Assembly: GCA_016212855.1 (NCBI GenBank)
Contig: JACRDP010000025.1
Coordinates: forward strand, 62,001-126,000
Direction of reading: 5' to 3'
Length of the DNA: 64,000 nucleotides
DNA from: Elusimicrobiota bacterium
GTDB taxonomy: Bacteria; Elusimicrobiota; Elusimicrobia; UBA1565; UBA9628
The position numbers were made by a program, and so were the translations under genes. Below, piece by piece: positions 367 through 18,061 of this stretch (positions are counted from its first letter, which is position 1; each line of letters begins with the position of its first letter). The notes under the pieces were generated by a model. It did no database searches, was not told the origin of the DNA, and saw only the letters and a program-made list of their open reading frames with translations.

Positions 367-367
367 C

Positions 368-604
368 GTGCAGAATTCCCTCCAAAGCCTCAAGCAGCTC
401 GAAGCTTTGGTCAAGCAGGCGTCCGAGTCCCTGCAGAAGCTCGGCGCGGAGAACCGTCAGTTCAAGGACGTCCTGCGCCGCCTCGAGAATGAGAATAAGG
501 CCCTCAAAGACGAGCTCCGCGAAGCGCGCCTGACCTTGGCCCGCCACGAGCGCCTCAAGTCGCGCCTGACGCGGCTCACCGACAAGCTCGAGAGGATCGC
601 ATGA
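368..604 (+). CDS. Small coiled-coil protein, ZapB-like
   Basis: This 78-residue protein starts with GTG one base after the pheT stop and overlaps zapA by four bases (ATGA). Almost the whole chain is a heptad-patterned, charged helix, with leucines recurring around residues 5-70 and no hydrophobic membrane segment. Size, coiled-coil character and position directly before zapA recall ZapB, an 81-residue coiled-coil divisome protein that in Escherichia coli bridges ZapA and the nucleoid. Coiled coils give little sequence signal, so the link to division rests mainly on the neighbour. It could be any short structural coiled coil; translation is probably coupled to zapA. Confidence 0.7.
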   Translation: MQNSLQSLKQLEALVKQASESLQKLGAENRQFKDVLRRLENENKALKDELREARLTLARHERLKSRLTRLTDKLERIA

Positions 605-906
605 ACGAGAAAGTCGAAGTCCAGATCGGCACGCGCCGCCTCGTCGTCGAGATGGAGGGCCTGACCCCCATCGAGATCAACGCGCTCGCGCAGAAGGTCT
701 CGGAGCGGGTCGTCGATCTGCAGAGCCAGAACAACAAGGTCGCCGACACCTCGAAGATCGCCTTGCTCGTGGCGCTCTCCTTCGCCGCGGAGCTCGACAA
801 GGAGCGCCAGGGGCACGACCTGACGCGGCGCCTGCTCGACAACAAGGCCGAGTCGCTGTCGCAGTCGCTGCGCGAGTCGCTGCAAGCCGGCGAAACTTCA
901 AAGTAA
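601..906 (+). CDS. zapA: Cell division protein ZapA
   Basis: The 101-residue protein has the ZapA layout: an N-terminal beta segment (V-Q-I-G-T-R-R-L), a short helix with the conserved L-A-Q-K-V pattern near residues 27-33, then a long C-terminal coiled coil from about residue 45. ZapA binds and bundles FtsZ filaments at mid-cell. The ATG overlaps the stop of the preceding coiled-coil gene, which indicates coupled translation, and rarA follows seven bases after the stop. The pheT-zapA order is common in bacteria and supports the call. Confidence 0.85.
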   Translation: MNEKVEVQIGTRRLVVEMEGLTPIEINALAQKVSERVVDLQSQNNKVADTSKIALLVALSFAAELDKERQGHDLTRRLLDNKAESLSQSLRESLQAGETSK

Positions 907-913
907 TTTATCC

Positions 914-2212
914 ATGAGCGAGCTCTTCTCCGCCGGCACCGATTCCCGTCCTCTCGCCGCGCGCATGGCGCCGCGCGGCCTCGACGAATTCGCGGGCCAG
1001 GAAGCGCTCCTCGGCAAGGGCAAGCTTCTCCGGCGTCTCGTGGAGAGCGGGCGGTTCACGTCCGCGATCTTCTTCGGGCCGCCCGGCTGCGGGAAGACGG
1101 CTTTGGCCCGCTATATCGCGGAGCACTCCAATGCGGAGGTCGTCGAGCTCAACGCGGTGACGGCGGGGGTCGCCGACATACGCAAGGCGGTGGAGCAGGC
1201 CAAATATTCGGCGGGGAGCCTGGGACGGAAGACGCTTTTGCTGGTGGACGAGATACACCACTTCAATAAAACCCAGCAGGACGCGCTGCTGCCGTCGGTG
1301 GAGCGCGGGGACGTGCTCTTGATCGGGATGACGACGGAGAATCCCGGCTTTTATGTCAACGCGGCGCTGCGATCCCGCGTGACCGCGTTTGAGTTCATGC
1401 CGGTGCCGGAAGGTGAGCTGGACAAAATTTTATCGAACGCCATCAACGACAACGACCGGGGGATCTCGTCACTACGGATCATTATGACGCCCGAGGCCAA
1501 GATTCATTTGGTGCGCCAGGCCAATGGCGATGCGCGGCGGCTATTGAACGCACTCGAGATCGCCGCGCTGACAACCACGGCTAACGCCGCGGGCGAACGG
1601 CGAATTACTCTTGATGTCGCAGAAGAATCCATACAACGACGTCAGATTCGCTACGACAAGAAATCCGACGACCATTACGATCATATCTCCGCCTTCATTA
1701 AATCCATCCGCGGTACGGATCCCGACGCGGCCCTTTATTGGATGGCCAAAATGTTGGAGGCGGGCGAAGACCCGCGGTTTATCGCGCGCCGAATTTTGAT
1801 CGCGGCTTCGGAAGATGTGGGCAACGCCGACTTTAGAGCCCTTCTCGTGGCCGAGGCCGCGTTTAGGAGCGTTGAAGTGCTCGGCATGCCCGAGGCGCGG
1901 ATAACGCTGGCGCAAGCAGTGACGTTCGTCGCTTCCGCGCCTAAATCGAACGCGGCCTATCTCGCGATCGACGCCGCGACCGCCGAAGTGCGTACGGGTC
2001 CCTCCCGCGAAGTTCCCTTACATTTGCGCGACGCCAGCATGGACGCCAAGGAACGCGGGCATGGCGCGGGTTATAAATACCCGCACGGCTTCCCCGGGCA
2101 CCACGTTTCGCAGGAGTACATGCCCAATCCCATGCGCTTCTACGAACCTTCGGACCAGGGCGATGAGAAGCGTATCGCCGAACGTCTCAAGTCGTTGAAG
2201 TCCGCTCAATAA
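914..2212 (+). CDS. rarA: Replication-associated recombination protein A (RarA/MgsA), AAA+ ATPase
   Basis: 432 residues, the usual length for RarA. The AAA+ core shows Walker A G-P-P-G-C-G-K-T near residue 54, Walker B L-L-L-V-D-E-I-H-H near residue 110 with the H-F-N-K-x-Q-Q-D-A-L signature typical of RarA/WRNIP1, and a sensor region T-T-E-N-P near residue 140. The C-terminal MgsA domain includes S-E-D-V-G-N-A-D near residue 295 and a conserved H-G-x-G-Y-K-Y-P-H near residue 380. RarA acts on DNA at stalled or gapped replication forks in the cytoplasm. It follows zapA by seven bases and probably shares its transcript. A symmetric DNA element lies just beyond its stop. Confidence 0.95.
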   Translation: MSELFSAGTDSRPLAARMAPRGLDEFAGQEALLGKGKLLRRLVESGRFTSAIFFGPPGCGKTALARYIAEHSNAEVVELNAVTAGVADIRKAVEQAKYSAGSLGRKTLLLVDEIHHFNKTQQDALLPSVERGDVLLIGMTTENPGFYVNAALRSRVTAFEFMPVPEGELDKILSNAINDNDRGISSLRIIMTPEAKIHLVRQANGDARRLLNALEIAALTTTANAAGERRITLDVAEESIQRRQIRYDKKSDDHYDHISAFIKSIRGTDPDAALYWMAKMLEAGEDPRFIARRILIAASEDVGNADFRALLVAEAAFRSVEVLGMPEARITLAQAVTFVASAPKSNAAYLAIDAATAEVRTGPSREVPLHLRDASMDAKERGHGAGYKYPHGFPGHHVSQEYMPNPMRFYEPSDQGDEKRIAERLKSLKSAQ

Positions 2213-2231
2213 ACAGCGGCCGGCATCGCGG

Positions 2232-2293
2232 GTTATCCACAAGCGGGGGTTTCAGTGTTGTCGACAACACTGGAAGACGCTGTTGTGGATAAC
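2232..2293. repeat. 62-bp two-fold symmetric element with two DnaA-box sequences
   Basis: An 11-base arm GTTATCCACAA (2232-2242) and its exact reverse complement (2283-2293) enclose, with a 10-base spacer on each side, a perfect 20-bp palindrome at 2253-2272 centred on TCGA. All parts share one centre at 2262.5. Each arm contains the consensus DnaA box TTATCCACA. A further 12-bp palindrome, CGTGAATTCACG, abuts at 2293-2304. The element lies after rarA and just before the promoter of the SGNH-hydrolase gene. It might bind DnaA or another dimeric regulator. No T-tract follows, so it does not look like a simple terminator. Confidence 0.8.
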
Positions 2294-2309
2294 GTGAATT
2301 CACGGGGCC

Positions 2310-2338
2310 TGGACAACGGCCATGTCCGGGGTTATCCT
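2310..2338 (+). promoter_or_regulatory. Promoter for the SGNH-hydrolase gene (TGGACA-N17-TATCCT)
   Basis: A -35-like TGGACA at 2310-2315 is followed after 17 bases by TATCCT at 2333-2338. Only six bases separate the -10 from the ATG at 2345, which predicts a leaderless transcript. The symmetric DnaA-box element lies directly upstream. Confidence 0.55.
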
Positions 2339-2344
2339 GAACGC

Positions 2345-3085
2345 ATGTGCCAACCCCTCCTCGCCCTCGCTCTCGCGGCCGCGCTCGCCGCCCCCTCCGT
2401 TGCCTCCGAAACCATACTCGTCGTCGGCGACTCCCACACGGTCGGCGCCTTCGGCGCACATATCGACGAAGCCCTGCGCGCGGTGAGGGGCAACCGCGTC
2501 GCGACGTACGGTGTGTGCTCCTCGCGGCCGCAGTCCTATCTGTCCGAGTCCGCGCACGGCTGCGGGCACGTCTTCCGGGATTTCGACAAGAAACCGCCGT
2601 CGAAGTGGCTCGGCTCGCGCGTTTATAAAGAGCTGCGCAAGGTCAAAGGCGTCGATAAGGAAGTCGAAATGGTCAAGACGCCGGAATTGGGTCAGCTATT
2701 GACCGATCACACTCCGTCCACGGTGATCGTCGCGCTCGGCTCCAATATTCCGATCAACGGGGCCAGCGTCGCGAAGACGCTCGCCCTGATCCACAAGGCC
2801 GGCGCGGCCTGCCTGTGGGTCGGGCCGCCCGATATGAGACGGCCCACCAAGGACGAGGTGGACGCGGTGTACGCGACCTTGGCCAAGAACAAGGTGGACG
2901 CGTCGGTCACGATGGAGGCGGCGAAGAAGGACGGCTGCCGGCTCATCGACAGCCGCGAATTTTCCTACCTGCGCTACCCCGAGAAGGACGGCGACGGCAC
3001 GCATTACATGGGGAAGCTGACGCCTTTGGCCGCGAAGTGGGGCGACGACGCGGCCGCGGCCGCGCTTAAGGCGTTAACGCCTTAA
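2345..3085 (+). CDS. Secreted SGNH/GDSL-type hydrolase
   Basis: Starting at ATG 2345 gives 246 residues with a clear Sec signal peptide (M-C-Q-P then a long Leu/Ala stretch ending P-S-V-A-S-E near residue 21). An upstream in-frame GTG at 2255 would bury the signal peptide and lies inside the palindrome and before the promoter. SGNH motifs are visible: G-D-S-H-T near residue 28 (nucleophile Ser), L-G-S-N near residue 137 (block III) and D-G-T-H-Y near residue 220 (Asp/His pair). Such enzymes hydrolyse esters of lipids or O-acetylated glycans; the substrate is unknown here. Its 3' end overlaps the convergent next gene by 12 bases. Confidence 0.75.
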   Translation: MCQPLLALALAAALAAPSVASETILVVGDSHTVGAFGAHIDEALRAVRGNRVATYGVCSSRPQSYLSESAHGCGHVFRDFDKKPPSKWLGSRVYKELRKVKGVDKEVEMVKTPELGQLLTDHTPSTVIVALGSNIPINGASVAKTLALIHKAGAACLWVGPPDMRRPTKDEVDAVYATLAKNKVDASVTMEAAKKDGCRLIDSREFSYLRYPEKDGDGTHYMGKLTPLAAKWGDDAAAAALKALTP

Positions 3086-5338
3086 GGCTTCGTTCAGGGC
3101 GCGCGCGCCGTCCCAGTCGACGGTGAGGCCGGGCGAGAGGAATATCTCGAGGCCGCCCGGGTGGCGGCCCGAATTCTGGTCGATGTTCGCCATCAGCCCG
3201 CGCTTGGACAGGTCCGCGTCGAAGGAGTCCGCGACGATGACGAGCGCGTCGGCGCCGGCGGCGCGCAGGCGGTCCCAGGCGTCGTACAGGCGGCGGACTT
3301 TCTCGGGTGAAACTGACCCCGCGGGGACGGCCGCCGCCTCGCGGACGAAGACGTTCTTGGCGACCTGAAGCGCGTCGATCCGGCGGCGGATTTCGCCCAG
3401 GTTTCGGGACGTGTAGGTGTTCACCGCACCGGGGTTCTCGGTCCAGCGCGCCCACTCGGAGTTCTTCGCGTCGAAGGCGTCGCCGGAGGCGGCGAGCCAG
3501 GCCTGAGCCGCGTCGGCGAAGTCGCGCGCGTCCTGCGCGGGCGAGCGTTTGATCGGGGAAGGAGGCGGCGGCTGGCCGCGACGGTCGAAGGAGCCGAGCA
3601 TCGGCTCGAAAGTATTGATGACGCGGTTGATCTCGGCCTCGCGGTGTAGGCGCGCCTTGGCGCGCGGCATGATCGTCTCAAGCACGGCCAGCATGGTCTC
3701 GAGTTGACGGCGGATCTCGGGGGTCAAGCCCGCGCGCGCGACGGCCTCGAAGCCGTCGTAATACGCCGTGGACAGAAGATAGGCGGCCAGCCGCTCGGGC
3801 TTCTCGGCGGACATATAGGCTTTCGTGAGAGCCTCCACTCGCCCGCGCAGGACCGCATCCGTCGACTCCTTCAGGTGCTCGGCGGCGAACTCCTCGAGCC
3901 CCTCGTCGGGCTTGGCCTGGGGCTTGGCGACGGCCTTCCAATCGGGGACGAAACTCTCGCGGATCGGGGCGAAGTCGAGGGTCACGATCACGGGGAAATG
4001 GTCGGACGGGTTCTTCTCGCGCTCCTCGTACGTCTTCGGGATCGCGCGCACGCTTCCATCGGGATTCTTGTAGCGGTACACCTCGGCCTTGCTCACCGCG
4101 CCGCGCAGGCCTTTCGAGACGAGCACGGCGTCCATCTGGCCGTACTTCGAGGCGCCGCCCTTCGGATGGAAGGTGTGCGTGATGCGGTCCTTGTCCGACG
4201 GCGGGTTCGGGGAGGCGTCGAAGCTGTCGGTCAGGCCCGCGGCCTCGAACAGGGGCTTGAACTCGGGCTCGTTGGGCACCTCGCCGTTGAAGTCGCCGGC
4301 GAGCATGACCGGCACGTCGGCGCCGAACTCCTGGCGGTAGCGGCCGATGATCTCGGCCGCGCGCTGGACCTGCGCGCCGCGCATGATGCGCGACTCGGGA
4401 TCGCGCCCGTCGCGGTCGCGCTTGGACTTGAAGTGGGTGCCGAACAGCACGAACAGCGGCTTGCCGCCGGGCTCGGCGCGCACGACGAGCGAGGTCAGGT
4501 CGCGCGAGAACAGCTTGGTCGGACCGCCGCCGAACACGGGGTCCACCCAGGTTTCTTCTTTATGAGAACGGTGTTCGATGGCCAGCGGCAGATCTCTTTT
4601 GACGAGGAAGGCGACGTCGATGCCGCGCTCGTCGTTGCCTTCGATCAGGAAGACTTTATACTTGCCGTCGAGATAGCGCTCGTTGAAGTCGGAGAGCGCG
4701 GCGATGTTCTCGACCTCTTCGAGGGTCACGATGTCGAGGTCGCTGTCGAGGATGACCTTGCCCTGCGCGCGCAAGGACCACTCCTCCTTGGGCTTGGCGT
4801 CGGAGATCTTCACGAGCTTGCCGGGATTGCCCGGATCGGGGACGTGCTTGCCGACGTTCTCGAACAGGTTCAGGAGATTGTACGTGCCGACCTTGAGCTG
4901 TTTGATCGACGCGAGCGGGCGGACCGGGGAGGCGGCCGCGGCCGCCGCGACGGGTTCGGAGACGTCGCCGACGGCGGCGGACCCGTCGAACAAACCGAGC
5001 AAGGCCTTCGGCGCCTGCGCCAGCTTCTCGCCGAAATTGGAGACCGCGGCGCGGAGCGGATTGATCGCCTTCGCGGGACTCGCGGCGACCGCAATCGCGG
5101 CAACGGGAACCGCCGCGGCGGCCGGCGCGACGGCGATCGCGGGCGCGAGAACCGGAACGAGGGACGGCGCCAGACTCGCCGCGAGAGTGGGAACCGCCAC
5201 GCCCGCGCTGAGAGCGGGCGCCTGAAAGGCGACCACGCCCGGCGCTCCCGTGAGGACGGGAACCGTGGTCTTGACCGAGACGACCTGGGCGTTCAGCGGG
5301 GACGCGAGAAGGAGCGCCGCCAACAAGGACCGGATCAT
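3074..5338 (-). CDS. Secreted endonuclease/exonuclease/phosphatase-family protein with Ala/Pro/Val-rich leader
   Basis: 754 residues. A signal peptide (M-I-R-S-L-L-A-A-L-L-L-A-S-P-L-N-A) is followed by about 110 residues rich in Ala, Pro and Val. The EEP domain spans roughly residues 145-455: T-Y-N-L-L-N near 150, the metal ligand region L-E-E-V-E-N near 200, R-G-I-D-V-A-F near 238, G-T-H-F near 300, G-D-F-N near 346 and S-D-H-F-P near 444. These are the catalytic Asn, Glu, Asp and His positions of the fold shared by DNase I, ExoIII and sphingomyelinases. The last 300 residues are helical and unrecognised. Substrate is uncertain: extracellular nucleic acid or phosphodiester lipid. A CATAAT -10 at 5345-5350 ends six bases before the ATG. 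Confidence 0.75.
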   Translation of the reverse strand: MIRSLLAALLLASPLNAQVVSVKTTVPVLTGAPGVVAFQAPALSAGVAVPTLAASLAPSLVPVLAPAIAVAPAAAAVPVAAIAVAASPAKAINPLRAAVSNFGEKLAQAPKALLGLFDGSAAVGDVSEPVAAAAAASPVRPLASIKQLKVGTYNLLNLFENVGKHVPDPGNPGKLVKISDAKPKEEWSLRAQGKVILDSDLDIVTLEEVENIAALSDFNERYLDGKYKVFLIEGNDERGIDVAFLVKRDLPLAIEHRSHKEETWVDPVFGGGPTKLFSRDLTSLVVRAEPGGKPLFVLFGTHFKSKRDRDGRDPESRIMRGAQVQRAAEIIGRYRQEFGADVPVMLAGDFNGEVPNEPEFKPLFEAAGLTDSFDASPNPPSDKDRITHTFHPKGGASKYGQMDAVLVSKGLRGAVSKAEVYRYKNPDGSVRAIPKTYEEREKNPSDHFPVIVTLDFAPIRESFVPDWKAVAKPQAKPDEGLEEFAAEHLKESTDAVLRGRVEALTKAYMSAEKPERLAAYLLSTAYYDGFEAVARAGLTPEIRRQLETMLAVLETIMPRAKARLHREAEINRVINTFEPMLGSFDRRGQPPPPSPIKRSPAQDARDFADAAQAWLAASGDAFDAKNSEWARWTENPGAVNTYTSRNLGEIRRRIDALQVAKNVFVREAAAVPAGSVSPEKVRRLYDAWDRLRAAGADALVIVADSFDADLSKRGLMANIDQNSGRHPGGLEIFLSPGLTVDWDGARALNEALRR

Positions 5339-5494: not shown

Positions 5495-8134
5495 ATGATC
5501 TACCGCTTTTTTCTCGTTTTTCTCGCCCTGCCCGCCTCCGCGGGCGTCATCTCCCTGCCGGTTTTCGAATCCGCCCCCCGCGTCGTCGCGCCCGCCGTAT
5601 CGCCGTCTTTGGCCGTCTCAGCGCTGACCCCTTCCGCGCTCCGCGCGGAAGGTTTTCCCGTCATAGCGCCCGCCCTCGCCGCGCCGGTCCCCACGGCCAT
5701 GGCCGCGGTCCATGCCGCGGCGGCCGCCTTGCCCGACGCGACGGTCCCCGCCGCTCAGGCGAAGGCCGCCGTCGCCGCGGCTTTCGACGCCTCGGCCGTT
5801 CGCCCCGCGGAAACCGGCGCGGTCGAGGGCGCCTTCTCCGCCGCGCTCCCTCTCTCCGCGCACTCCGCGCCCGATGCGCCCGAGCCCGCCGCCGTACCTT
5901 CCGCCGCCGCTCCGGCCGCAGACGTCCCGTTCTTCTTCCGCCGCTACGGCCTGGCTCGCCTGCTCGTCCGGCCGCTGGTGCGGCTGTTCTACAAGACGAC
6001 GATCGCCGGCCTCGAGAACCTGCCGAAGGGGCCGGCCGTCATCATCCCGAACCACATCTCTTACGTGGACGCCATTCTCATCTCCTTCGCCGTGGACAAG
6101 CCGATGCGCTTCATGATGAAGCGCTCTATTTTCGAGAAAGCGCCGCGCCTGATGGGCGCGATCGGCGCGATCCCGGTGTCCCCGCGCGACGGGCCCGCGG
6201 CGATCGAGGCATCGCTTGAGGCCGCGCGCCAGGCGATCCGCGCCGGACAGAGCGTCGTGATCTTCCCCGAGGGCCAGCTCACCTTGACCGGGAACATGAT
6301 CGGCTTCCGCCGCGGCTTCGAGCGCATCGTCGCCGAGGCTCCCGCGCCAGTGATTCCCGCGTATTTAGACGGCCTGTGGGGCTCGGTGTTCTCGATGCAG
6401 AAAGGCCCGTCGATTTGGAGCCGCCTCAAGGAACTCCCGCGGCCGGTGTCCGTGCGCTTCGGTCCCGCGCTTTCGCAGCCCACGTCCCAGGCGGGCCGCC
6501 TGGCCGTCGCCGAGCTCGGCGCCGACGCGATGGACGCGCGCGTGCGCTCGCGCCGCAAGACTCTCGTGCGCGAGTACTTCGCCGGAGCGTTGAAGAACTG
6601 GAAGCGCCCCGCGATCGCCGACTCGATGGGCGCGGACCTCACCTACGGGAAATCCCTGACCGGCGCGTTGTTGCTCGGCAAGGCGCTCGACGCGGAGCTC
6701 CCGGCGGCCAGGAACACGGCCGTCCTCCTGCCGCCGTCGAGCGGCGGCGCGCTCGCGAACCTCGCTTTGGCGGCGATCGGCAAGGTCCCGGTGAACCTCA
6801 ACTACACCGCCAGCCGCGAGGCGCTCGACCACGCGCTCGCGAGCGCGGCGATCGACTCGATCGTGACCTCGCGCCGCTTCGTTTCGGCGCTCAAATCCGA
6901 CCGCGGCTTCGAGCTTCCGGCCGGGAAGTCGATCGTGTATCTCGAGGACCTCGCGCCCAAGATTCCCGCGTGGAAGAAGACCGCGCTATACCTGGCGCTG
7001 AAGATCCTGCCGCGCTTCATCTCGGAGAGGATATTCTTGAGAAAGGCCGCGACGAGCCTCGACGAAACGGCGACGATCCTCTTCACCAGCGGCTCGAGCG
7101 CGCTCCCGAAGGGCGTCGTGCTGACCAACAAGAACGTCCTGGCCAACGTCGAGATGGTCCGAGAACTCCTGCCCTGGGCCGAGCACGACTCGATGCTCGG
7201 CGTGCTCCCCTTCTTCCACTCCTTCGGCTTCACCGTGACCTTGTGGCTGCCGCTCGTCTCGGGCATGTCCGCCGCGTACCACACGCACCCGATGCAGGCC
7301 GAGGCGATCGGCAAGCTCGCCGCGAAGGCGAAGTCCACCTTGCTGCTCGCGACCCCCGCCTTCCTCCAGCGCTACACGCAGAAGGTGCCCGCCGAGGCGT
7401 TCAAGCACCTGCGCCTCGTGATCGCCGGCGCCGAAAAGCTGCGCGACTCCGTCGCCGACGAGTTCGCCGCGAAGTTCGGCGCGCGCCCCTTCGAGGGCTA
7501 CGGCGCCACCGAGCTCTCCCCCGTCGCCTCCGCCGGAACGCCGGACGCCGGCTCTCAAAAGGGCTCCAAGTCCGGCTCCGTCGGCCGCGCCTTGCCCGGC
7601 ACCGCGGTCAAGGCCGTGGACCTGGCCACCGGCAAGCCCGTCGCCGACGGCGAGGTCGGCATGCTCCTGGTCAAGGGACCGCACGTCATGACGGGCTACC
7701 TCGGCCAGCCGGAGAAGACCGCCGAGGTGCTCAAGGACGGCTGGTACGTCACCGGCGACCTGGGCACGATCGATCGCGACGGCTTCATCACCATCACGGG
7801 CCGCCTCTCCCGCTTCTCCAAGCTCGCCGGCGAGATGGTCTCGCACGTCGCCGTCGAGGAGAAGCTCCAGCAGGCCGCGGGGCTCGCCGACATGACCTTC
7901 GTCGTCACCGGGATTAAAGACGAGAAGCGCGGCGAGAAGCTCGTCGTGCTGTACTCGAACTGGGAAGGCGACATCGACGCGTTGCTTTCGAAGATGCGCG
8001 AAAACGGCGTGCCCAACCTGTGGCTGCCCTCGCGCGGCTCCTTCTACAAGGTGCCCGCGATCCCCCTGCTCGGCACCGGCAAGCTCGACCTCAAGGCCGT
8101 CAACGAGCTCGCCGCGAAGGTCGCCGGCTCCTGA
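5495..8134 (+). CDS. aas: Lysophospholipid acyltransferase / acyl-ACP synthetase fusion (Aas-like) with signal peptide and Ala/Pro-rich leader
   Basis: 879 residues. After a signal-like N-terminus (M-I-Y-R-F-F-L-V-F-L-A-L-P-A-S-A-G) comes a leader of about 130 residues rich in Ala, Pro and Val. A PlsC-type acyltransferase follows: N-H-I-S-Y-V-D (HX4D) near residue 187 and F-P-E-G near 258. The second half, from about 370, is an AMP-forming acyl-activating domain with T-S-G-S-S-A-L-P-K-G near 532, G-Y-G-A-T-E-L near 669 and T-G-D-L near 753. E. coli Aas (719 residues) has these two activities and re-acylates lysophosphatidylethanolamine; no MFS transporter domain is present here. A signal peptide on an ATP-using enzyme is odd. 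It might instead be a membrane anchor, or the leader may be removed. Confidence 0.82.
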   Translation: MIYRFFLVFLALPASAGVISLPVFESAPRVVAPAVSPSLAVSALTPSALRAEGFPVIAPALAAPVPTAMAAVHAAAAALPDATVPAAQAKAAVAAAFDASAVRPAETGAVEGAFSAALPLSAHSAPDAPEPAAVPSAAAPAADVPFFFRRYGLARLLVRPLVRLFYKTTIAGLENLPKGPAVIIPNHISYVDAILISFAVDKPMRFMMKRSIFEKAPRLMGAIGAIPVSPRDGPAAIEASLEAARQAIRAGQSVVIFPEGQLTLTGNMIGFRRGFERIVAEAPAPVIPAYLDGLWGSVFSMQKGPSIWSRLKELPRPVSVRFGPALSQPTSQAGRLAVAELGADAMDARVRSRRKTLVREYFAGALKNWKRPAIADSMGADLTYGKSLTGALLLGKALDAELPAARNTAVLLPPSSGGALANLALAAIGKVPVNLNYTASREALDHALASAAIDSIVTSRRFVSALKSDRGFELPAGKSIVYLEDLAPKIPAWKKTALYLALKILPRFISERIFLRKAATSLDETATILFTSGSSALPKGVVLTNKNVLANVEMVRELLPWAEHDSMLGVLPFFHSFGFTVTLWLPLVSGMSAAYHTHPMQAEAIGKLAAKAKSTLLLATPAFLQRYTQKVPAEAFKHLRLVIAGAEKLRDSVADEFAAKFGARPFEGYGATELSPVASAGTPDAGSQKGSKSGSVGRALPGTAVKAVDLATGKPVADGEVGMLLVKGPHVMTGYLGQPEKTAEVLKDGWYVTGDLGTIDRDGFITITGRLSRFSKLAGEMVSHVAVEEKLQQAAGLADMTFVVTGIKDEKRGEKLVVLYSNWEGDIDALLSKMRENGVPNLWLPSRGSFYKVPAIPLLGTGKLDLKAVNELAAKVAGS

Positions 8135-10009: not shown

Positions 10010-13000
10010 GTGAGATTCGCGCTTTTCCTCGCCTTCCTCTTATCTCCCCCTCTCCCGCTGCGCGCGGTCGAGGTCCGGGCCGTCGAAGTCAACGCCGGCC
10101 GCTCCGCCTGGACGACCTACCTCGCCGCCCCGGAAGCCCAGCCGCTCCTCGGCGCGATGGGCTTCTCGGGTCTGACCCCTCTTCAAACCTCGGCCTTGGC
10201 CGGAGTCCTGGTCCAGTCGGGCGTTCCCCTCGCCTCGATTCAGAAACTGCCGGAGCTGCCCGCCCAGGTCCACCTCATCCAAAGCAAGGCCTCGGCCTAC
10301 GCCGGGGCGATGCTCGCCGCCCCGAGCGCCGCGACCCCGCTGAACGCGCCCGGACAGGAAGGTCTCGTCGAGGCGCGCTTACTCGCGACCTTGGCCCCGC
10401 TTCACGCCCGCGCCATCATCGAGGCGCGCCGCCAGGCGGGCGACCGCATCGACGAGGCGCGCGCGGACTGGGGCCTGGCCGCGGCCGAGAGCGGCTCGGT
10501 CGCCGGCGGCGAGAGCGCGATCACGACGCGGCTTCAGCGCTCCGATCCCAACCGCCGTCCGGTCGAGACTCAGAAGGCGCCGCCCGCGCCCGCTTCGCGG
10601 GCCGCGGCGAATCTTCCCTTCGCGCCCGCGCGCTCCTTCTCGCTGTCCCACGTCGCGGCGGTGATGGAGCGCCGGCTCGCGGGGAAGGAGAAGATCGCCG
10701 AGGAACAGTACCGGTCGATGGACGCACCCGCCTTTTTTGAGGGCAACGAGACCCGTCGCATGGATACCTTGCTCACCCGCCAGGCCGCCGATCAGGCCCA
10801 GGCCATGCTCGAGGTGATCAGCAACGCCCAAGACGCGACGAACACGGGCAACAAAAAGGTCGGCCGCTTCGGCGTCGGCGGTCTGCAGATCCTGGGCGAG
10901 CTCAAGGCGCCCGAGGACCGCGTGGTGATGGAGACGTCGAAAGGCGACGGAACGGCCGCGCAGCTCATTTTCTGGAAAAAGGACGGCGAGGTGCAGTTCG
11001 ACTACCGCACGATCCCCTCGTCCGTCCGCGGGACGAGCTTCGAGGTGATCAAGAATCTCGGCGCGGAGGAGGAGGCTCACCGCCGGGAATTCATCGAGCG
11101 CAAGCTGCGCGCCAACGACCGCGGCCCCATCACCTGGCAGGACGGCGCGGGCGTCAACCGCCCCGAGACGTTCGCCGAATATGGGCGAGAAACCGGCGCC
11201 GCGCCCGCGGCGACGCCCGCCGTCGTCGTCCGGCTGTCCGCGTCGGGGTACAAGATAACGGATCAGGGCAAGGGGATGGGCCTCAAGGAGGTTTTCGAAC
11301 GCTACCTCAAACCCTACGGCACCGACAAGCCGGTGGAGAAGAACACCGACGGAGCGCGCCTGTTCCACCGGGCGGCCCCCGCGCCGAAGGCCTCGCTCGG
11401 CGTGGCCATGGTCGAGATCGAGCGAGTGAAAGTGGACGCGAGCCGCCTGGGCCTCGCGGGCGACGCGTTCATCGACCTGCCCCACGACACCGACCTCAGC
11501 GAGGAGCGCGGCACCGTCTCCCTCGTCCCCGCCGATCAGAAGATCGACGGCGCCTTGCGCGGCATGCGCCTGTTGATCGACCGGCTGACCGATCCCTCGA
11601 TCGAGGACCCTGACCGCTTCCGTTTGATCAACACCGTCGCCGAGGTCATCCGCGCCAAGCAGCCCGCGGGAGACAAAGGCGTGTCGCGCGGCGAAGCGAA
11701 AACCGCCACGGACCTGATGTGGTATTTAAGACACACCCTCGAAACCTCCCGTCTGCTCGACGCCTACCGCCAGCGCGGCCTCGCCTTCCTGCCGAACTCG
11801 GCGCGGTGGGCCCCGCTCGAGGGCGTCTCGGAGAGGATCGTCTTCCTCGACGACGCGCTGTTTACGCCCACGCCGAAGGACCTCGAGACCGCGGGGCTCG
11901 AGCCGCTGCCGGAGACGCTCACCGGCGCGCCCGCCTGGAAATCCTTCGCGGAGCGGACCCAGGCCCGGTTCTTCACGCGCGACCTCCGCCGCGGCGGCGC
12001 GCTCGCCGTCGTCGGGAACGGGATCATCGTCATCGACAAGTCCATCGCCGGCGGCGGCGGCGACGTGGACGTGCTCATCGCGCGCATCGAGCGCGAGCTG
12101 ACCCGGGCCCGGACCGAGATGAAGCCCGCGCCGCCCAAGCGCGGCCTCCTGGCCTGGGCGAAGCGGCGCGTGCTCGTACCGTTCGCCGTCGCCGCGAGCC
12201 TCGCCGCGGGCGTGGTCATCCTCAACGGCGCCTTCCAGTCCGCTCACTCCGGCGACTCCGAATGGTCCTACTACAGCCAGGGCAGCTACCAGATGAGCGG
12301 CAATCCGAATCCGAACCACGAGGCCAAGAAGCATCCCTCCAAGCCCTCGCGTCCGTTCGGCGCGTATTCGCCCGAAGCCGTCGGCTCCCCCTACTTCATC
12401 GACGCCGTCCGCAGCGGCCTCGCCGACGACGGCGCCTGGAAATCGAAGGAAGCCGGGATGACCCACCCCGACAGCCCCGTCACGGGAAGCATCACCGTCG
12501 GCTACAAGCTCGCGGTCGCCCCGAACCAGGACGGGAAGCGCCTGTTCAACCGGGCGAACGGCGCCATCACGGATCTGAAGGTGACGGACCAGAAGGGCGA
12601 CCCGGTCGAGCATTCTCTCGATCCGAAGACGGACGCCTTGACGGTCGCGCATTTCTCCGGGGTGGCGAGCGTCTCCTACCGCATCGAGACTCACGCCGCG
12701 GCGAACGGGATCGACTTCGACGCGAGCGCGCTGCCGGCGATCGAACTGCGCGACCTGCCGGCGAAATGGAGGGCGGCGCTCGATCCGCTGAAGAACGCGC
12801 CCGTCGAGGAGAGGCTCGCGGCGATCGACAAGATCATGGCCGCGGACTTCGCCTACGACTACGACAAGCCGTTCTGGCACGACGGCAGCTGGGGCAAGAC
12901 GGCCTCGAAATACCTGGACAAGGGCGAGCGCGTCCCGATCATCTGCAACACCTCCAGCCTGTACTACTACATGCTTTCGCGCTACATGGACATTCCCGCC

Positions 13001-16000
13001 GTCTACGTGTCCCTGACCAAAGGCGTCAAGGGCAAGTTCTACAACGACGTCGTCGGCCACGCTCAGACGATGGTCGAGGTCAACGGCCAGTGGCGCACGA
13101 TCGAGACGACCGCCTTGATGCCCTTGGTGTCCGCGGCCCCGGAGGTCATCGACATGGATCCGGGCGGCGGCGACTCGCCGTCGCTGTTCAACTGGGGCTT
13201 CTTCAAGAATTCGTCGCCCTCTTCGATGTCGCCCAAGGAGCAGCTCGGCCTTCTCGCCGTCGTCGCAGCCTCCTTCCTCGCTTTGCTCGGCTACCTCGTC
13301 AAAGGCCTGTTCGGCACCTGGAAGACGATCAGGAGGGTGAAGACCGCGCGCGCGGCGGCCGCGCTCGGAAACTTCCGCGACCGGCTCGCGTCCTGGGCCT
13401 GGTGGAAATGGGAGCCGCTGACCCGGCACTGGGGCGCGGAGCACTCCGCGTCGTGGGGCGCGGCCTATCACATCGTGAAATCCGGCTGGCTGCACGTCGA
13501 GGACCGCCACGGACGCATGCGCGCGATCGCGATCACGCCCAGGAGCGACGTGCGCATGGTCGCAGACCGCCTGCTCTTCGTCCCCCGGCGCTGGTACCGG
13601 GACGGCCCGCTCTCCTACTTCGACGGCGAGCGCGTGACCCCGATCCCGGGCATGGGCTTCTTTGAAACCAAGCCCAAGCTGTTCGGCCGCGGCTCCAGCC
13701 TGTACGCCGAAACCGGCTCCTCGCTGTACCGCATCGACCTCGCCGCAGGCCAAGCCAGGCTCGTGGCGAAGACGGGAAGCTCGTCGATGCAGGCGCTTTT
13801 GCTCGACAGCCGCGGCGGCGTCGACCGCATCGCCGTGCGCACGATTCCGGCGTTCGGGAAAAAAGCGACCTTCAAGACGTTGACCGTGTCCGGCGACAAA
13901 GCCGAGTGGGGGCCCGAAGAGTTGACCGCGCGCATGTCCAACTCGGAGAAGCAGGAGTTCAAGGCCTACCCCTCCGGCGAACGGACCGTGTACGCGGTCC
14001 GCGACAAGCACCTGCTGCGGGTCTTCGTCTCCGGGCTCGGCGAGGTGCCGCTCGCCGAGGGCATGGCCGACCCCGACGCGAAGGAGATCCTGTGGCTGAC
14101 CAACGGCGTCTTCAAAGCGGCGGTCGCCGGAAAGATATTCTATCTCCGCGGGCACCTCCTCGAGTCGTTCGACATCGCGTCGTGGACGCGCCAGGAGCCG
14201 ATCCTCGGCGGCCATCGGATCGACGCGATCGAATCGGTCGGCGAGGACGTGGCGGCCGTCATCGCGTACACGAACCGCGAGACGAACCGTTACTTCGTGG
14301 ACGGCGACGGGGCCTTTCTCGGTCCTTCGCTCGGCACGCCCGAGGCGGCCCTGCGCTACGGAGACGCGGTGTTCTTCCGCGACGGCGCCGCTATGGGACG
14401 CATGTACGTGACCGCCAAGGACGGTCAGGTCACGGCCTATCCCATGGAGTCGTCTCCGGAAAGAGGCTACTCGCGGGCGGCCGCGCGCGCCACCGGCCTC
14501 GACGCCGCGCTGTTCGAGTCCCTCGATCCGCCGGGCGGAACGGCGCTCAATCACGCCTTGCTCCAGACGAAGGACCCCGACGTCCTGGCCGCCGCGGCGG
14601 AACGCGACGGCGCGGCGCTGGCCGCCCTGGACGAGCCCCTGCGCCGGGCCGCGGCGTGCCGGGGGGCCCTCGGCTCCCAGGACTGGTCGCTCGGGCGCAT
14701 GCTCCTGAGCCCGCACGTCGCCCGTTCGGCCGCGATCTCCGCCCCGGTGCTGGAGCGGCTGGACGCGCTCGTGCGCGAGTCGGCGGGCGACACCGCGCGG
14801 CTGCGCACGACGTTCGAGCTGGCCGACCGCATGCTCGCGAGCCATGGCGTCAACGCCGACGCCGCCCTCGGCCACCTGCTCGACATCTTCGCCGTCGCGC
14901 CGGAGCTCGTCGAGGACATCGGCCGGGCCGTGCTTCCGACGGCGCTGTCGGCCGAAGGCGCCCGGTACGAGCCGATCGCGTATCTGCTCGCCGGCGAGAC
15001 CTACCGCAAGCGCCTGCCGCCGCTGACGTCGCTGTTCCTGCAGATGCTCGCGGAAGGCCCGGAGAGCCTGCTTCGTCGCGAATCCGAAAACGCGCCGGCC
15101 GCGGCCCCGGACTTCGTCCTGGAAGGACGGGGCGAATCCATGAGCCGTCTGATCGCCGCTTCGCGGCGATCAACCGAAGAGCTGCTCGACGCCGGCGGCG
15201 CGGCCGCCTTCGCGCGCGTGTACGAGGGCCTGGCCGACAACGACCGCGCCGATCTCTCGCCCGTCACGGGCGTGGTGAAGAACCAGGGCCTGTCCGCCCC
15301 GGTGTGGATCCGCGAGCTGGTGCAGAACGCGCGCGACGCGGCGCGCGAGGCCAAGCGCGCCGGCCGGCCCGTCCCTCAGGAGCTCGCGCTGCGCAGCTAC
15401 CTGTCCGAAGACGGGTCGCGCTGGATCGTGTCCGTCGGCGACAAGGTGGGCATGAAGCTCAGCCGCTTCCTCAAGGCCATGCTCGTGCCCGAGGCCACGA
15501 CCAAGACCTTGGCCGACGAGGTCCGCATGTTTTTGGCCATGCCCGGCACGGCCGAGGAGAAAGCCGGCCGCCTCCTGACCGAATTCTTCGACGACGCGGC
15601 GGCGGGCGACGCCGCGCTCAAGGCCTACCTGCTCTCCGCCGTCGCGGCTCCGGCGGCGCAGGCCGGCAAGGCCATCGCCGAGAAGCTCGCCGACCGGATG
15701 AAGAAGGGCGGCGCGGGCTTCTTCGGCATCGGCTTCTTCACCGTGTTCGGCGGCGGCGACCAGGTCGTCGTACGCACCGGCGCGGACGGCATGATGCGCG
15801 AGGGCGCTCTCACGCCCGTCAGGGATAACGAGGGCCGTCTCATCGACATCAAGCTCGAGCGCATCCGCGAATGGGCCGATCCCGAGGGCGCGCGTCAGGG
15901 AACCGAGGTCCTGCGCGTCAAGAACGTCACGCCCGAGAACTTCGGCCGCCTGCTCGTCGAGAACGCCTACGTGCACATCATGACCGGCAAGTACGCGGGA

Positions 16001-17083
16001 GCCGTGACGGACGTCGCGATCACGCTCAACGCCGCCCCGCTGCACTCCGGCATCGCGAACGCCGCTCAGTCCGGCGGCCTGCGCTCGCGCCTCGACCCCT
16101 CCGGCCGCGCGCGCTGGACGGCCGACGAGCTGTTCGTCTCGGAGCCGCCGCCGGAGGGGCTGACCTTGCTGCCTCCCGACATCGCCTCGGCTTTGGTCAA
16201 CGCCGGCTGGAACCTGGACTTCCCCGCGGCCACGCCCGTCGTGCGCACGCGCACCAGCGTGCAGAACCCCGGCCTGTACGCGCCGGCGGCCGCCATGCTG
16301 GCCTTGCCGACGGCGTTCTCTCTGTACCGCGACGGAAAAATCTCCTTGCCCGGCATACCGCCCTATGAGGCGCATTGGCGGACCTCGACGTGGGACGAGA
16401 CGCCCGCGTCGGACCGGCTGCGCGCCGACGCGGCCGCGATCCGCGGCGGTGAGGCGGGCGAGGAGCTGTGGCGCCGTTACCGGGACGAGCCGCGCCTGTG
16501 GGCCCAGCTCATGCTGCACCTGAGCGACGACAAGGAGCCCGCGCTGCGCGCCGCTCTCGGTCCGAAGATGTCCGCGGACCTGGACGCCGCGCGTTCTCGA
16601 GGGGAACCGGCCAGGGTCGGGCCGCTGCCCGCGCGCGGCTCGGCGAACTGGGAGGAGCAGGTGCGCGCGCTCCACGCCGAGGCGCTCGCCCTCATCGAGG
16701 CGAACTCGCCGAGCGCGCTCGCCGGCGAACCCGCGGCCGCGGGTATGACCCGGGTCCTGATCAAGCTCGCGACCTTCCTCGACGCGCCTCCGCCGTTCGT
16801 GTCCGCGGGCCCCGCGCTGTGGGAAGGCCTGCGGCGCTGCCTCGACGAAGGCAAGGCCGTGCCGCTGCTGGAAGGCCTGCTGTCGGAGATCGGGCGAGCC
16901 GGGAACGCCGACGCGGTGCGTCTATTCGAGGGCTGGCTCAAGGGCCAGGGCGCGGCGAAGGAGTTGGAGACGCTCTTCCTGAACGGGACGTCGCGCGCGG
17001 ACGCCGAGGCCTCGCTCGGCCGCATGTGGAAGCTCGCCTCGCGCGGCCGCCCGCCCTTGCTGGCTCTGAAGCCGAAAGGCTAG
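10010..17083 (+). CDS. Giant multidomain protein: two GHKL ATPase-like modules, transglutaminase-like domain, two membrane spans
   Basis: 2357 residues from a GTG. An N-terminal hydrophobic segment (residues 3-19) resembles a signal peptide. Module 1 has an N-box E268-xxx-N272-xx-D275-A followed at once by a G2-like G-R-F-G-V-G-G (285-291) and R-G-T-S (340-343), while the D-x-G-x-G G1 box (D418-Q-G-K-G-M) comes afterwards, so its order looks permuted. A membrane span lies at about 721-742. A transglutaminase-like domain follows with Cys979, His1017 and Glu1032. A second span lies at about 1078-1098, then roughly 350 residues of beta-rich repeats. Module 2 has E1769-xxx-N1773-xx-D1776, a degenerate G1 (D1811-K-V-G-M), T-T-K near 1831 and G-x-G-F-F-G-I-G-F-F (1901-1910) in normal order. 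I recognise no known full-length family. Confidence 0.85.
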   Translation: MRFALFLAFLLSPPLPLRAVEVRAVEVNAGRSAWTTYLAAPEAQPLLGAMGFSGLTPLQTSALAGVLVQSGVPLASIQKLPELPAQVHLIQSKASAYAGAMLAAPSAATPLNAPGQEGLVEARLLATLAPLHARAIIEARRQAGDRIDEARADWGLAAAESGSVAGGESAITTRLQRSDPNRRPVETQKAPPAPASRAAANLPFAPARSFSLSHVAAVMERRLAGKEKIAEEQYRSMDAPAFFEGNETRRMDTLLTRQAADQAQAMLEVISNAQDATNTGNKKVGRFGVGGLQILGELKAPEDRVVMETSKGDGTAAQLIFWKKDGEVQFDYRTIPSSVRGTSFEVIKNLGAEEEAHRREFIERKLRANDRGPITWQDGAGVNRPETFAEYGRETGAAPAATPAVVVRLSASGYKITDQGKGMGLKEVFERYLKPYGTDKPVEKNTDGARLFHRAAPAPKASLGVAMVEIERVKVDASRLGLAGDAFIDLPHDTDLSEERGTVSLVPADQKIDGALRGMRLLIDRLTDPSIEDPDRFRLINTVAEVIRAKQPAGDKGVSRGEAKTATDLMWYLRHTLETSRLLDAYRQRGLAFLPNSARWAPLEGVSERIVFLDDALFTPTPKDLETAGLEPLPETLTGAPAWKSFAERTQARFFTRDLRRGGALAVVGNGIIVIDKSIAGGGGDVDVLIARIERELTRARTEMKPAPPKRGLLAWAKRRVLVPFAVAASLAAGVVILNGAFQSAHSGDSEWSYYSQGSYQMSGNPNPNHEAKKHPSKPSRPFGAYSPEAVGSPYFIDAVRSGLADDGAWKSKEAGMTHPDSPVTGSITVGYKLAVAPNQDGKRLFNRANGAITDLKVTDQKGDPVEHSLDPKTDALTVAHFSGVASVSYRIETHAAANGIDFDASALPAIELRDLPAKWRAALDPLKNAPVEERLAAIDKIMAADFAYDYDKPFWHDGSWGKTASKYLDKGERVPIICNTSSLYYYMLSRYMDIPAVYVSLTKGVKGKFYNDVVGHAQTMVEVNGQWRTIETTALMPLVSAAPEVIDMDPGGGDSPSLFNWGFFKNSSPSSMSPKEQLGLLAVVAASFLALLGYLVKGLFGTWKTIRRVKTARAAAALGNFRDRLASWAWWKWEPLTRHWGAEHSASWGAAYHIVKSGWLHVEDRHGRMRAIAITPRSDVRMVADRLLFVPRRWYRDGPLSYFDGERVTPIPGMGFFETKPKLFGRGSSLYAETGSSLYRIDLAAGQARLVAKTGSSSMQALLLDSRGGVDRIAVRTIPAFGKKATFKTLTVSGDKAEWGPEELTARMSNSEKQEFKAYPSGERTVYAVRDKHLLRVFVSGLGEVPLAEGMADPDAKEILWLTNGVFKAAVAGKIFYLRGHLLESFDIASWTRQEPILGGHRIDAIESVGEDVAAVIAYTNRETNRYFVDGDGAFLGPSLGTPEAALRYGDAVFFRDGAAMGRMYVTAKDGQVTAYPMESSPERGYSRAAARATGLDAALFESLDPPGGTALNHALLQTKDPDVLAAAAERDGAALAALDEPLRRAAACRGALGSQDWSLGRMLLSPHVARSAAISAPVLERLDALVRESAGDTARLRTTFELADRMLASHGVNADAALGHLLDIFAVAPELVEDIGRAVLPTALSAEGARYEPIAYLLAGETYRKRLPPLTSLFLQMLAEGPESLLRRESENAPAAAPDFVLEGRGESMSRLIAASRRSTEELLDAGGAAAFARVYEGLADNDRADLSPVTGVVKNQGLSAPVWIRELVQNARDAAREAKRAGRPVPQELALRSYLSEDGSRWIVSVGDKVGMKLSRFLKAMLVPEATTKTLADEVRMFLAMPGTAEEKAGRLLTEFFDDAAAGDAALKAYLLSAVAAPAAQAGKAIAEKLADRMKKGGAGFFGIGFFTVFGGGDQVVVRTGADGMMREGALTPVRDNEGRLIDIKLERIREWADPEGARQGTEVLRVKNVTPENFGRLLVENAYVHIMTGKYAGAVTDVAITLNAAPLHSGIANAAQSGGLRSRLDPSGRARWTADELFVSEPPPEGLTLLPPDIASALVNAGWNLDFPAATPVVRTRTSVQNPGLYAPAAAMLALPTAFSLYRDGKISLPGIPPYEAHWRTSTWDETPASDRLRADAAAIRGGEAGEELWRRYRDEPRLWAQLMLHLSDDKEPALRAALGPKMSADLDAARSRGEPARVGPLPARGSANWEEQVRALHAEALALIEANSPSALAGEPAAAGMTRVLIKLATFLDAPPPFVSAGPALWEGLRRCLDEGKAVPLLEGLLSEIGRAGNADAVRLFEGWLKGQGAAKELETLFLNGTSRADAEASLGRMWKLASRGRPPLLALKPKG

Positions 17084-17087
17084 ACGG

Positions 17088-18011
17088 CTAGGGCCGCACC
17101 GCCGTCACCTCGTGAATGCGGCAGAAGCGGTTCTCAGGCACGTCAGGGTGGCGATCTTCGCCCCAGGAGTTGCGCACCAGCAAGGCCATCGCGCCGCCTC
17201 GCGGCTGCCGATATCCGCGGACGGCGACGCAGTGCTTCGCGTGCATGGCCGGCGCTCCCCATTCCGGAAGTCCGCCGAGCGAGAGGCAGATGGCGACGGG
17301 ACGCCGCACCGCGAGGTCCTCCATCAAGCGCGCCTTGACGGGCGCGCCCGCCGCGCGGCAGCGCGCGTCCTCATCCCGTGAGGGCGCGTTGAACGTGGAG
17401 GCGAAGGTGGACGAATGCACGGTGAAGCCCTTCAACAGCCGGCGGACCTCCTCGCGATCGGCCTCCGCGCGCGCGAGCATGGCGGCCCCGTAAAAATAGC
17501 CGATCTCCTCTCTCTCGCGTTCAGGCGACGGAGCGAGGCTCGCCTCGTAGGCGAGCAGGGCGGACTCGCCCTCGCAGCCCGCCGCGCGGCATTCGTCGCG
17601 GCGCTTCTCTCGAAAGGTTTCGAACTTTCTCAGGAAGCCGTCCCACGGCACGGTCTCCGCGCGGGCCACGCCCAGCTCGAGCGCGATCCGGAGGTCGCGC
17701 GACGGCCAGCCGCCCTCGATGAGCACGCGCTCGGACAGCCGTGGATCGACGGAGTAACGCGCCGCCGACACGCCGTTGATCACGTTCGTGCGCAGGAACA
17801 GGTCGGCGTCGGACAGCAGCACAGGCTCGGCGTCGCGCCGGCGGCGCTTCATCGCCGCCTCCAAGATCGCGATCGAGGCGAAGGCGTGGCAGGAGCCGGT
17901 GTCGCACTGGTCGCGGAAGTCCTCGTCGAATACGGCGCCCATGTCGACCTGGTCGGCCGGCGCGGGAAGCGCGAGCATGAGGATGAGAGAGACCGCGAAA
18001 AGTTTCCTCAT
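17088..18011 (-). CDS. Secreted papain-like (C1) cysteine peptidase
   Basis: I start at the ATG at 18011, which puts a signal peptide (M-R-K-L-F-A-V-S-L-I-L-M-L-A-L-P-A-P-A) at the N-terminus; an in-frame start at 18053 would precede the -10 TATACT on this strand (18027-18032). The catalytic Cys is in D-T-G-S-C-H-A-F-A near residue 41, matching the papain Q-G-x-C-G-S-C-W-A-F block, with His in K-H-C-V-A-V near 259 and Asn in R-N-S-W-G-E near 281. The Gln of the oxyanion hole is shifted or replaced. About 307 residues. It probably acts outside the cytoplasm; the substrate is unknown. It sits downstream of rimO and ends four bases from the giant gene. Confidence 0.75.
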   Translation of the reverse strand: MRKLFAVSLILMLALPAPADQVDMGAVFDEDFRDQCDTGSCHAFASIAILEAAMKRRRRDAEPVLLSDADLFLRTNVINGVSAARYSVDPRLSERVLIEGGWPSRDLRIALELGVARAETVPWDGFLRKFETFREKRRDECRAAGCEGESALLAYEASLAPSPEREREEIGYFYGAAMLARAEADREEVRRLLKGFTVHSSTFASTFNAPSRDEDARCRAAGAPVKARLMEDLAVRRPVAICLSLGGLPEWGAPAMHAKHCVAVRGYRQPRGGAMALLVRNSWGEDRHPDVPENRFCRIHEVTAVRP

Positions 18012-18026
18012 ATGAAGGCCCGGCAC

Positions 18027-18032
18027 AGTATA
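18027..18032 (-). promoter_or_regulatory. -10 TATACT for the papain-like peptidase gene
   Basis: TATACT on the minus strand ends 15 bases before the chosen ATG, giving a leader of about nine bases. It decides between the two in-frame starts. Confidence 0.4.
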
Positions 18033-18061
18033 AGCCCGATCGGGCGAACGCACAAGACGGG

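Follow-up and report, generated by a model that had tools for sequence, protein, structure and literature searches.

Gyrase, Hsp90, MutL and histidine kinases draw their power from GHKL domains, whose descriptions presume one linear order of the ATP-site motifs: N-box, G1, lid and G2. The N-domains of Hsp90, MutL and GyrB pair between chains, and the N-box glutamate serves as the general base in GyrB, MutL and Hsp90. Canonical order also holds for the modules of sacsin, in which we know of no membrane-flanked transglutaminase domain. An excerpt of PMC3629688 describes sacsin as a giant that carries several ATP-binding modules of Hsp90 type. Here we analysed a 64,000-nucleotide stretch of DNA (the window) from an Elusimicrobiota bacterium (contig JACRDP010000025.1, positions 62,001 to 126,000, forward strand), in which an uninterrupted open frame with a GTG start at 10010–17083 (+) encodes P0001, a protein of 2357 residues. 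Judged by its sequence, P0001 is a giant membrane protein with two GHKL modules, and the first of these is very probably a true GHKL (Bergerat) domain in which two adjacent blocks have changed places.

Module 1 shares with the Hsp90/HtpG branch of GHKL proteins an N-box with a catalytic-type glutamate, a D-x-G-x-G-M box, a lid-like T-x-K, a glycine loop and a GT motif, but places the G1/lid block after the glycine loop and the last strands. P0001 further differs from Hsp90 and HtpG in being a giant membrane protein; no middle domain was recognised, and membership of that family as defined by middle and C-terminal domains was not found, in the two regions compared (block D of module 1, and module 2). 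Hsp90-like proteins of the same phylum (L054, L055, L056, L061 and L062) are open frames of 576–623 residues in canonical order that score below the HtpG cut-off. The likeness to sacsin is likewise limited, as NCBIfam NF047352 (sacsin N-terminal domain) matches the second N-box of P0001 far below its cut-off (E 2.4e-4, 21.5 bits against 50); the other two of the three NCBIfam rows for the whole protein, LapG (E 0.13) and HtpG (E 0.38), also failed to reach theirs. With transglutaminase-like thiol enzymes (Transglut_core, LapG-type) P0001 shares a Cys-His-acid arrangement, differing in that the third residue is Glu and that the domain is flanked by two hydrophobic segments and, further out, by the two GHKL modules. 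Whole-protein searches gave a single Pfam row (E 2.4) with no GHKL match, no match at E ≤ 1 among PDB sequences and none of the PADLOC anti-phage defence families at E ≤ 1. No permuted GHKL protein appeared among the matches listed in the open-licence literature for permutation of GHKL, Bergerat, histidine kinase or Hsp90 domains, for GHKL-transglutaminase proteins or for Elusimicrobia giant proteins, which is no proof of absence; in the excerpts of PMC3710099 and PMC7824862, the permutations described concern HEPN domains and methylases.

Motif order and probable block exchange in module 1

The initial annotation had singled out two exact E-x3-N-x2-D-A boxes in P0001 (residues 268–276 and 1769–1777) and, in the first module, a glycine loop that precedes D-x-G-x-G. 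Both boxes are exact to the residue, and the other residues that it named (the glycine loop, the two G1 boxes, C979, H1017 and E1032) stand at the positions given; shuffled versions of P0001 contain a mean of 0.022 such boxes, and none of 2000 shuffles contained two. The gene and the elements of module 1 are as follows.

10010–17083 (+): giant protein gene P0001 (open frame; alignments with L019 and L020 at 47–48% identity)
10610–10855 (+): module 1 block A with the N-box, residues 201–282 (alignment, block-order test)
10811–10837 (+): N-box 1, EVISNAQDA, residues 268–276; E, N and D invariant in 8 of 8 sequences
10856–11218 (+): module 1 block B, with glycine loop (G2), strands, GT motif and helix, residues 283–403
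10862–10882 (+): glycine loop GRFGVGG, residues 285–291, N-terminal to G1
11219–11341 (+): module 1 block C, with displaced hairpin, G1 (D-x-G-x-G-M) and lid-like T-D-K, residues 404–444
11261–11278 (+): G1 box DQGKGM, residues 418–423; D, G, G and M invariant in 8 of 8 sequences
11342–11689 (+): module 1 block D, transducer-like, with conserved Arg500, residues 445–560 (comparison with the HtpG middle domain not significant)

Relatives were sought in 340 genomes of the same phylum. The order N-box, glycine loop, strands with GT, helix, hairpin with D-x-G-x-G-M and lid-like stretch holds in all eight aligned module-1 sequences, each from a different genome, with identity to the window sequence falling to 25%. 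Invariant across the eight are E, N and D of the N-box, three loop glycines, the GT motif and D, G, G and M of G1 (the G2 and GT positions being G85, G88, G90, G141 and T142 in alignment A1). Module 1 carries the GHKL motifs (N-box, G1 box, G2 loop and GT), and the linear order N-box, G1, lid, G2 arises only after blocks B and C are exchanged; because its native form departs from that order, we file module 1 as a derived, permuted GHKL lineage rather than an ordinary member. In block D, R500 is conserved in all nine aligned rows and resembles, by eye, the arginine that acts in catalysis in the middle domain of Hsp90, a likeness that the profile comparison did not bear out (P 0.2).

For a block-order test, module 1 was cut into four blocks (A, ending with the N-box; B, from the glycine loop through the last strand; C, with hairpin, G1 and lid; D, the remainder), and its profile was rebuilt in all 24 orders and compared by hhalign (P values below) with six overlapping GHKL references: an Hsp90-like set, a MutL-like set, HtpG, Hsp90-like plus HtpG, module 2, and L060. 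The canonical profiles are few (five Hsp90-like, three MutL-like, one HtpG and one other), all come from the same phylum and represent 10 of 12 GHKL loci, the motif filter having missed L053 (an HtpG, used only for comparing block D and module 2 with HtpG) and L063; the labels Hsp90-like and MutL-like were assigned by eye, and L052 and L053 alone exceed the cut-off for HtpG. The order A-C-B-D ranked first against five of the six references and second against L060, whereas the native A-B-C-D ranked between 7 and 16. Thus rearranged, module 1 matched the Hsp90-like set at P 96.7 over 132 columns.

Sliding block C through 81 insertion places, against Hsp90-like plus HtpG, gave a maximum that lies past the N-box and ahead of the glycine loop: 99.3 for insertion after residue 279 and 98.5 for insertion after 283, flanked by 87.1 after 275 and 78.5 after 289, versus 57.3 at the native place. 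Against module 2 the maximum was 79.1 after residue 283, with about 46 at the native place. Taken singly, all eight sequences scored higher rearranged than native both against Hsp90-like plus HtpG and against L029, a relative described below, and seven of eight did so against module 2. Five of the eight were also tried against Pfam HATPase_c and HATPase_c_3, where none passed the cut-off in native order and three did when rearranged (best GHKL bits 13.3, 11.9, none, none and 23.9 native; 26.5, 26.5, 20.1, 24.7 and 34.2 rearranged). The permuted order would explain why module 1 has no Pfam annotation. These sequence tests are not all independent of one another; taken together, they make it very probable that module 1 is a GHKL domain with blocks B and C exchanged, and it probably binds ATP.

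Single motifs of this kind are short, and assemblies of metagenome-assembled genomes may hold errors, so that the order might reflect chance or misassembly. The same order in eight sequences from eight genomes, the absence of two N-boxes from all 2000 shuffles and a sliding maximum at the predicted place refute this explanation, to which we assign a negligible chance. Strict circular permutation was likewise discarded: A-B-C is no rotation of A-C-B, and two neighbouring blocks have instead traded places. The A-B-C order would arise if C-B were duplicated and the outer parts then lost.

Tandem duplication leads to a further possibility, in which block C would be what is left of a degenerate second GHKL copy and would serve, by an intermolecular swap, to complete the site in another chain. 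A tandem duplicate that has lost its first C and its last B has the same order, and the linkers on either side of block C appear, on reading the sequence, long enough to permit a swap. By eye, however, none of the eight aligned sequences retains a residual N-box or a second glycine loop beside block C, and we judge this origin improbable. Homology and conservation would be equal under both readings, so that the swap differs from an exchange within one chain only in which chain is completed.

Canonical-order relatives and predicted fold

Two relatives carry a comparable module in canonical order. In L029 (3823 residues, genome G050), at about residues 850–1130 of the open frame, it matched the rearranged module-1 profile at P 97 over 239–240 columns and the native order at P 75–81, with other canonical GHKL profiles reaching P 0.2–76. 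Whole L029 scored 26.7 bits for HATPase_c_3 (cut-off 25), with its best stretch in this module, and 26.3 bits for HATPase_c (cut-off 26.4); because no single stretch reaches E 0.01, the HATPase_c_3 score may sum both modules. When this module was searched in the 340 genomes, only G050 itself matched in it, six other genomes matching in their module-2 part. The canonical module of L071, a contig fragment from G297 with a degenerate G1, matched the rearranged profile at P 95.9 over 275 columns and the native order at P 32.9; one other genome of the 340 matched it, weakly.

In a tree that the permuted rows entered in rearranged form, these rows formed one group (85/84, short of the 95/80 that the program stars; recovered in 86% of bootstrap trees) and the module-2 rows another (98/93), with the second module of L029 among the latter. 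The long branches of L029 and L071 join in this tree, a join that we leave uninterpreted. Given L029 and, less specifically, L071 in canonical order, the permuted order of module 1 is probably derived, and the two-module layout probably predates the block exchange. The region that follows module 1 in P0001 (residues 561–715) did not match L029 (P 0.5), despite a resemblance by eye.

L029 residues 3132–3329 form a protein kinase domain (32.0 bits against a Pfam cut-off of 31.7). Residues 26–747 of L029 are 50.6% identical to residues 5–817 of L028, after which L028 continues into a transglutaminase-like domain and L029 into its GHKL modules.

An AlphaFold model of module 1 built from five sequences (pLDDT 64.7, pTM 0.46) has an N-box helix, loop, helix, four strands, helix, short strand and helix, hairpin, and helix, which is the permuted order. 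Among the Foldseek matches listed, the best probability was 0.30, for 3h4l_A (a DNA-repair N-domain), and GHKL N-domains stood at 0.30, 0.20 and 0.18. The module-2 model (three sequences, pLDDT 48.6) was too poor for use. The Bergerat fold, which the initial annotation named as the check for both modules, is not confirmed by these predictions: module 1 shows the expected elements in order at moderate confidence, with no significant fold match, and module 2 yielded no usable model.

Several results weigh against the block exchange as read here. The runner-up order was often D-A-C-B, which also has A-C-B in line, and by a small margin (75.4 versus 74.8; for L060, 46.8 versus 46.9); the MutL-like reference gave a weak result (P 70.6, 41.8 versus 41.7); the sliding maximum against module 2 is shallow, preceding places lying mostly at about 65–78; and L027 scored lower against module 2 when rearranged. 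In the model, the glycine loop and the stretch after G1 fall below pLDDT 50, and Foldseek found no match at E ≤ 0.001 and ranked a non-GHKL structure first. Block D compared with the full HtpG profile gave P 0.2 and no middle-domain match. The canonical-order relatives are one sequence each, and L071 fits Hsp90-like sets nearly as well as the rearranged profile (P 94.5–95.4 over about 100 columns). Set beside the conserved motif order, the block-order, insertion and Pfam tests and the two canonical-order relatives, these points leave the reading of module 1 as a GHKL domain with its boxes in swapped order well supported.

Module 2, the transglutaminase-like domain and the wider protein

Module 2 follows the usual order. 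Between the two modules lies a thiol-enzyme-like domain bracketed by hydrophobic segments.

15230–16399 (+): module 2, GHKL in canonical order, residues 1741–2130 (alignment, profile comparisons)
15314–15340 (+): N-box 2, ELVQNARDA, residues 1769–1777
15440–15454 (+): shortened G1 of module 2, DKVGM, residues 1811–1815
15716–15733 (+): module-2 glycine loop GFFGIG, residues 1903–1908
12170–12226 (+): hydrophobic segment 1, residues 721–739, basic on its N-terminal side (hydropathy; the L019 counterpart is under threshold)
12587–13189 (+): transglutaminase-like domain, residues 860–1060, with C979, H1017 and E1032
13244–13300 (+): hydrophobic segment 2, residues 1079–1097, basic on its C-terminal side (hydropathy)

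N-box, G1 and G2 of module 2 stand in canonical order. The degenerate G1 noted earlier at D1811 proves to be D-K-V-G-M, one residue shorter than D-x-G-x-G-M, and this short form recurs in seven of eight aligned rows, L029 keeping the full D-E-G-I-G-M. By hhalign, module 2 matched HtpG at P 96.7–96.9, in an alignment confined to the HtpG N-domain, and Hsp90-like proteins of the phylum at P 97.2; it has no Pfam GHKL match in P0001 and falls short of the curated family score.

The residues C979, H1017 and E1032 are invariant in all five aligned sequences (the weak region of L027 being left out), and Pfam Transglut_core matches three of five members weakly (best E 8.1e-4); the P0001 segment itself stays below the curated transglutaminase-family cut-offs and finds only DUF553 (E 0.23). 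In L021 the domain again lies between the two modules, and L027 has a weak match there (E 1.6e-4). With hydrophobic segments on both sides, the reading first proposed, a transglutaminase-like Cys-His-Glu centre between two probable membrane spans, is supported. The outer flanks of both segments are basic, from which the positive-inside rule would predict cytoplasmic GHKL modules and an external enzyme.

Some members depart from this architecture. L029 has two GHKL modules and no detectable transglutaminase domain, L028 (which ends at a contig end) has the transglutaminase-like domain and no detectable GHKL module, and the signal-peptide-like N-termini seen by eye in members whose start is included conflict with the positive-inside rule. 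Such N-termini would fit a module 1 that keeps its motifs without being an ATPase, as a periplasmic structural or peptide-binding domain behind a cleaved signal peptide, and so would the lack of any further above-threshold segment before module 1 in P0001, L019, L020, L021, L022 and L027. The N-terminal hydrophobic segment itself exceeds the threshold in L019, L022, L024, L027, L028 and L029 and not in P0001, L020 or L021. Yet the basic N-terminal side of segment 1 puts module 1 in the cytoplasm under the positive-inside rule, and the invariance of N-box E, N and D, the G2 glycines, GT and D-x-G-x-G-M in all eight sequences, at identities down to 25%, speaks against a domain without ATPase function; we consider this alternative unlikely.

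Further regions of P0001 were delimited as follows; region profiles match by construction the sequences from which they were built.

10010–10066 (+): signal-peptide-like N-terminus, residues 1–19 (by eye; under the hydropathy threshold)
10067–10609 (+): N-terminal region, residues 20–200 (a P0001/L019/L020 profile also matches a 341-residue G006 protein, E 6.5e-14)
11690–12154 (+): conserved region after module 1, residues 561–715 (a P0001/L019/L020/L022 profile also matches L021, E 6e-28)
13400–14629 (+): short repeated strands, possibly a propeller, residues 1131–1540 (sequence read only; inside the L019/L020 alignment)

Whole P0001 matched 11 of the 340 genomes at E ≤ 0.001, its own included; among these, G006 matched in the N-terminal region only, G217 in the transglutaminase-like region only and G050 in part of module 2. 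Because L019 (2357 residues from ATG) and L020 (a 2395-residue open frame) align with P0001 from about residue 204–212 to 2353, at 47–48% identity and along most of its length, we take P0001 to be a real gene. Both modules are present in L021 (3385-residue open frame) and L027 (5805-residue open frame), and fragments at contig ends show module 1 (L022, L024), module 2 (L023, L025) or module 1 with a weaker module 2 (L026, E 2.6e-9). The module-1 profile found 8 genomes at E ≤ 2e-96 and 8 more weakly, at 1.2e-5 or poorer. The weak matches were classified by reading the proteins (L040, L044, L045, L046, L047 and the L029 region), with L041 and L042, which yielded only other frames, and L043, which yielded none, left out. 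One wider scan of genome contigs, outside the phylum set, matched 311 stretches, among which 4 were relatives, all of them Elusimicrobia bacterium MAGs; in viral contigs 83 stretches matched the module-1 pattern, none of them a relative, and plasmids gave no match.

G065, the genome that holds L026, carries a second module-1 profile match (E 7.9e-18); L072 (G065:C436) is a second partial permuted-type module in that genome, with G1 after the last helix; its N-box and glycine loop would lie past the end of the contig. The 341-residue open frame in G006, of the same genus (L030, 806–1828, −), has only the N-terminal region of P0001 and is perhaps a relic or source. The motifs QD-x-H, EGA-x-x-ID and GG-x-H-x-E were seen by eye in the N-terminal parts of L021 (about 110–540), L027 (about 95–480) and L071 (about 75–500) and not in P0001; this region may resemble TraB/EreA-like proteins.

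In the window, a papain-family match (Peptidase_C1, 43 residues) lies in a convergent neighbour at 17088–18053 (−) whose end is four bases away from that of the giant gene, and an 879-residue protein at 5495–8134 (+) has an acyltransferase domain with an AMP-binding domain C-terminal to it. An open frame of 1049 residues antisense to the giant gene (11726–14875, −) is probably a shadow of high G+C. At L021, an open frame of at least 1036 residues with a NUDIX domain (10–3120, +) terminates 29 bases upstream of the start of G052's giant gene. Neighbour genes are not common to the three genomes compared (the window, L049 and L021) and offer no clue to function; the survey of homologues advised at the outset bore out the motif order and the ATP-site motifs, kept in 8 of 8.

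A possible ATP-driven membrane enzyme

These parts may be connected as follows. The exchanged blocks may still fold into one ATP site. Because the chain passes from the lid straight into the transducer-like region and does not return to the glycine loop, closing the lid on ATP should exert a direct pull on the transducer-like region. Hydrolysis is favoured over simple binding, since the N-box glutamate is retained in both modules. Within one chain, each module might pair with the other, and an ATP cycle might act through the two membrane segments to regulate the transglutaminase-like enzyme across the membrane, which would act on an envelope protein or peptide. Such pairing within the chain, with ATP-driven regulation of a membrane-flanked thiol enzyme, remains doubtful in our view; it is weakened by L029, whose two modules come with no detectable enzyme domain, and by the truncated L028, whose enzyme domain comes with no detectable module.

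P0001 could instead be mainly a sacsin- or Hsp90-like chaperone whose GHKL modules clamp a client and whose transglutaminase-like domain is accessory. The second N-box has a sub-cut-off match to the sacsin N-terminal domain of NCBIfam (E 2.4e-4), HtpG can be aligned with module 2 (P 96.7), and sacsin, in the excerpt of PMC3629688, is likewise giant with repeated Hsp90-like regions. Set against these likenesses are a thiol domain with an invariant triad between the modules in four of six two-module proteins (P0001, L019, L020, L021, L027 and L029 being counted; weak in L027, none in L029) and the lack of significant middle-domain homology in comparisons of block D and module 2 with HtpG. A chaperone role is possible, though we lean away from it.

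We tentatively propose that P0001 represents a natural, non-cyclic GHKL rearrangement fixed in one lineage of Elusimicrobiota giant proteins, relatives having kept the canonical order, with the lid in series with the transducer in a motor that would drive a thiol enzyme across the membrane. If true, this would be a GHKL motor with different mechanical wiring. That a conserved family departs from GHKL order suggests that the chain can be re-threaded without loss of the ATP site; together with its canonical-order relatives, the permuted family would constitute a natural experiment on lid/transducer coupling, and other permuted GHKL proteins may hide among unannotated proteins.

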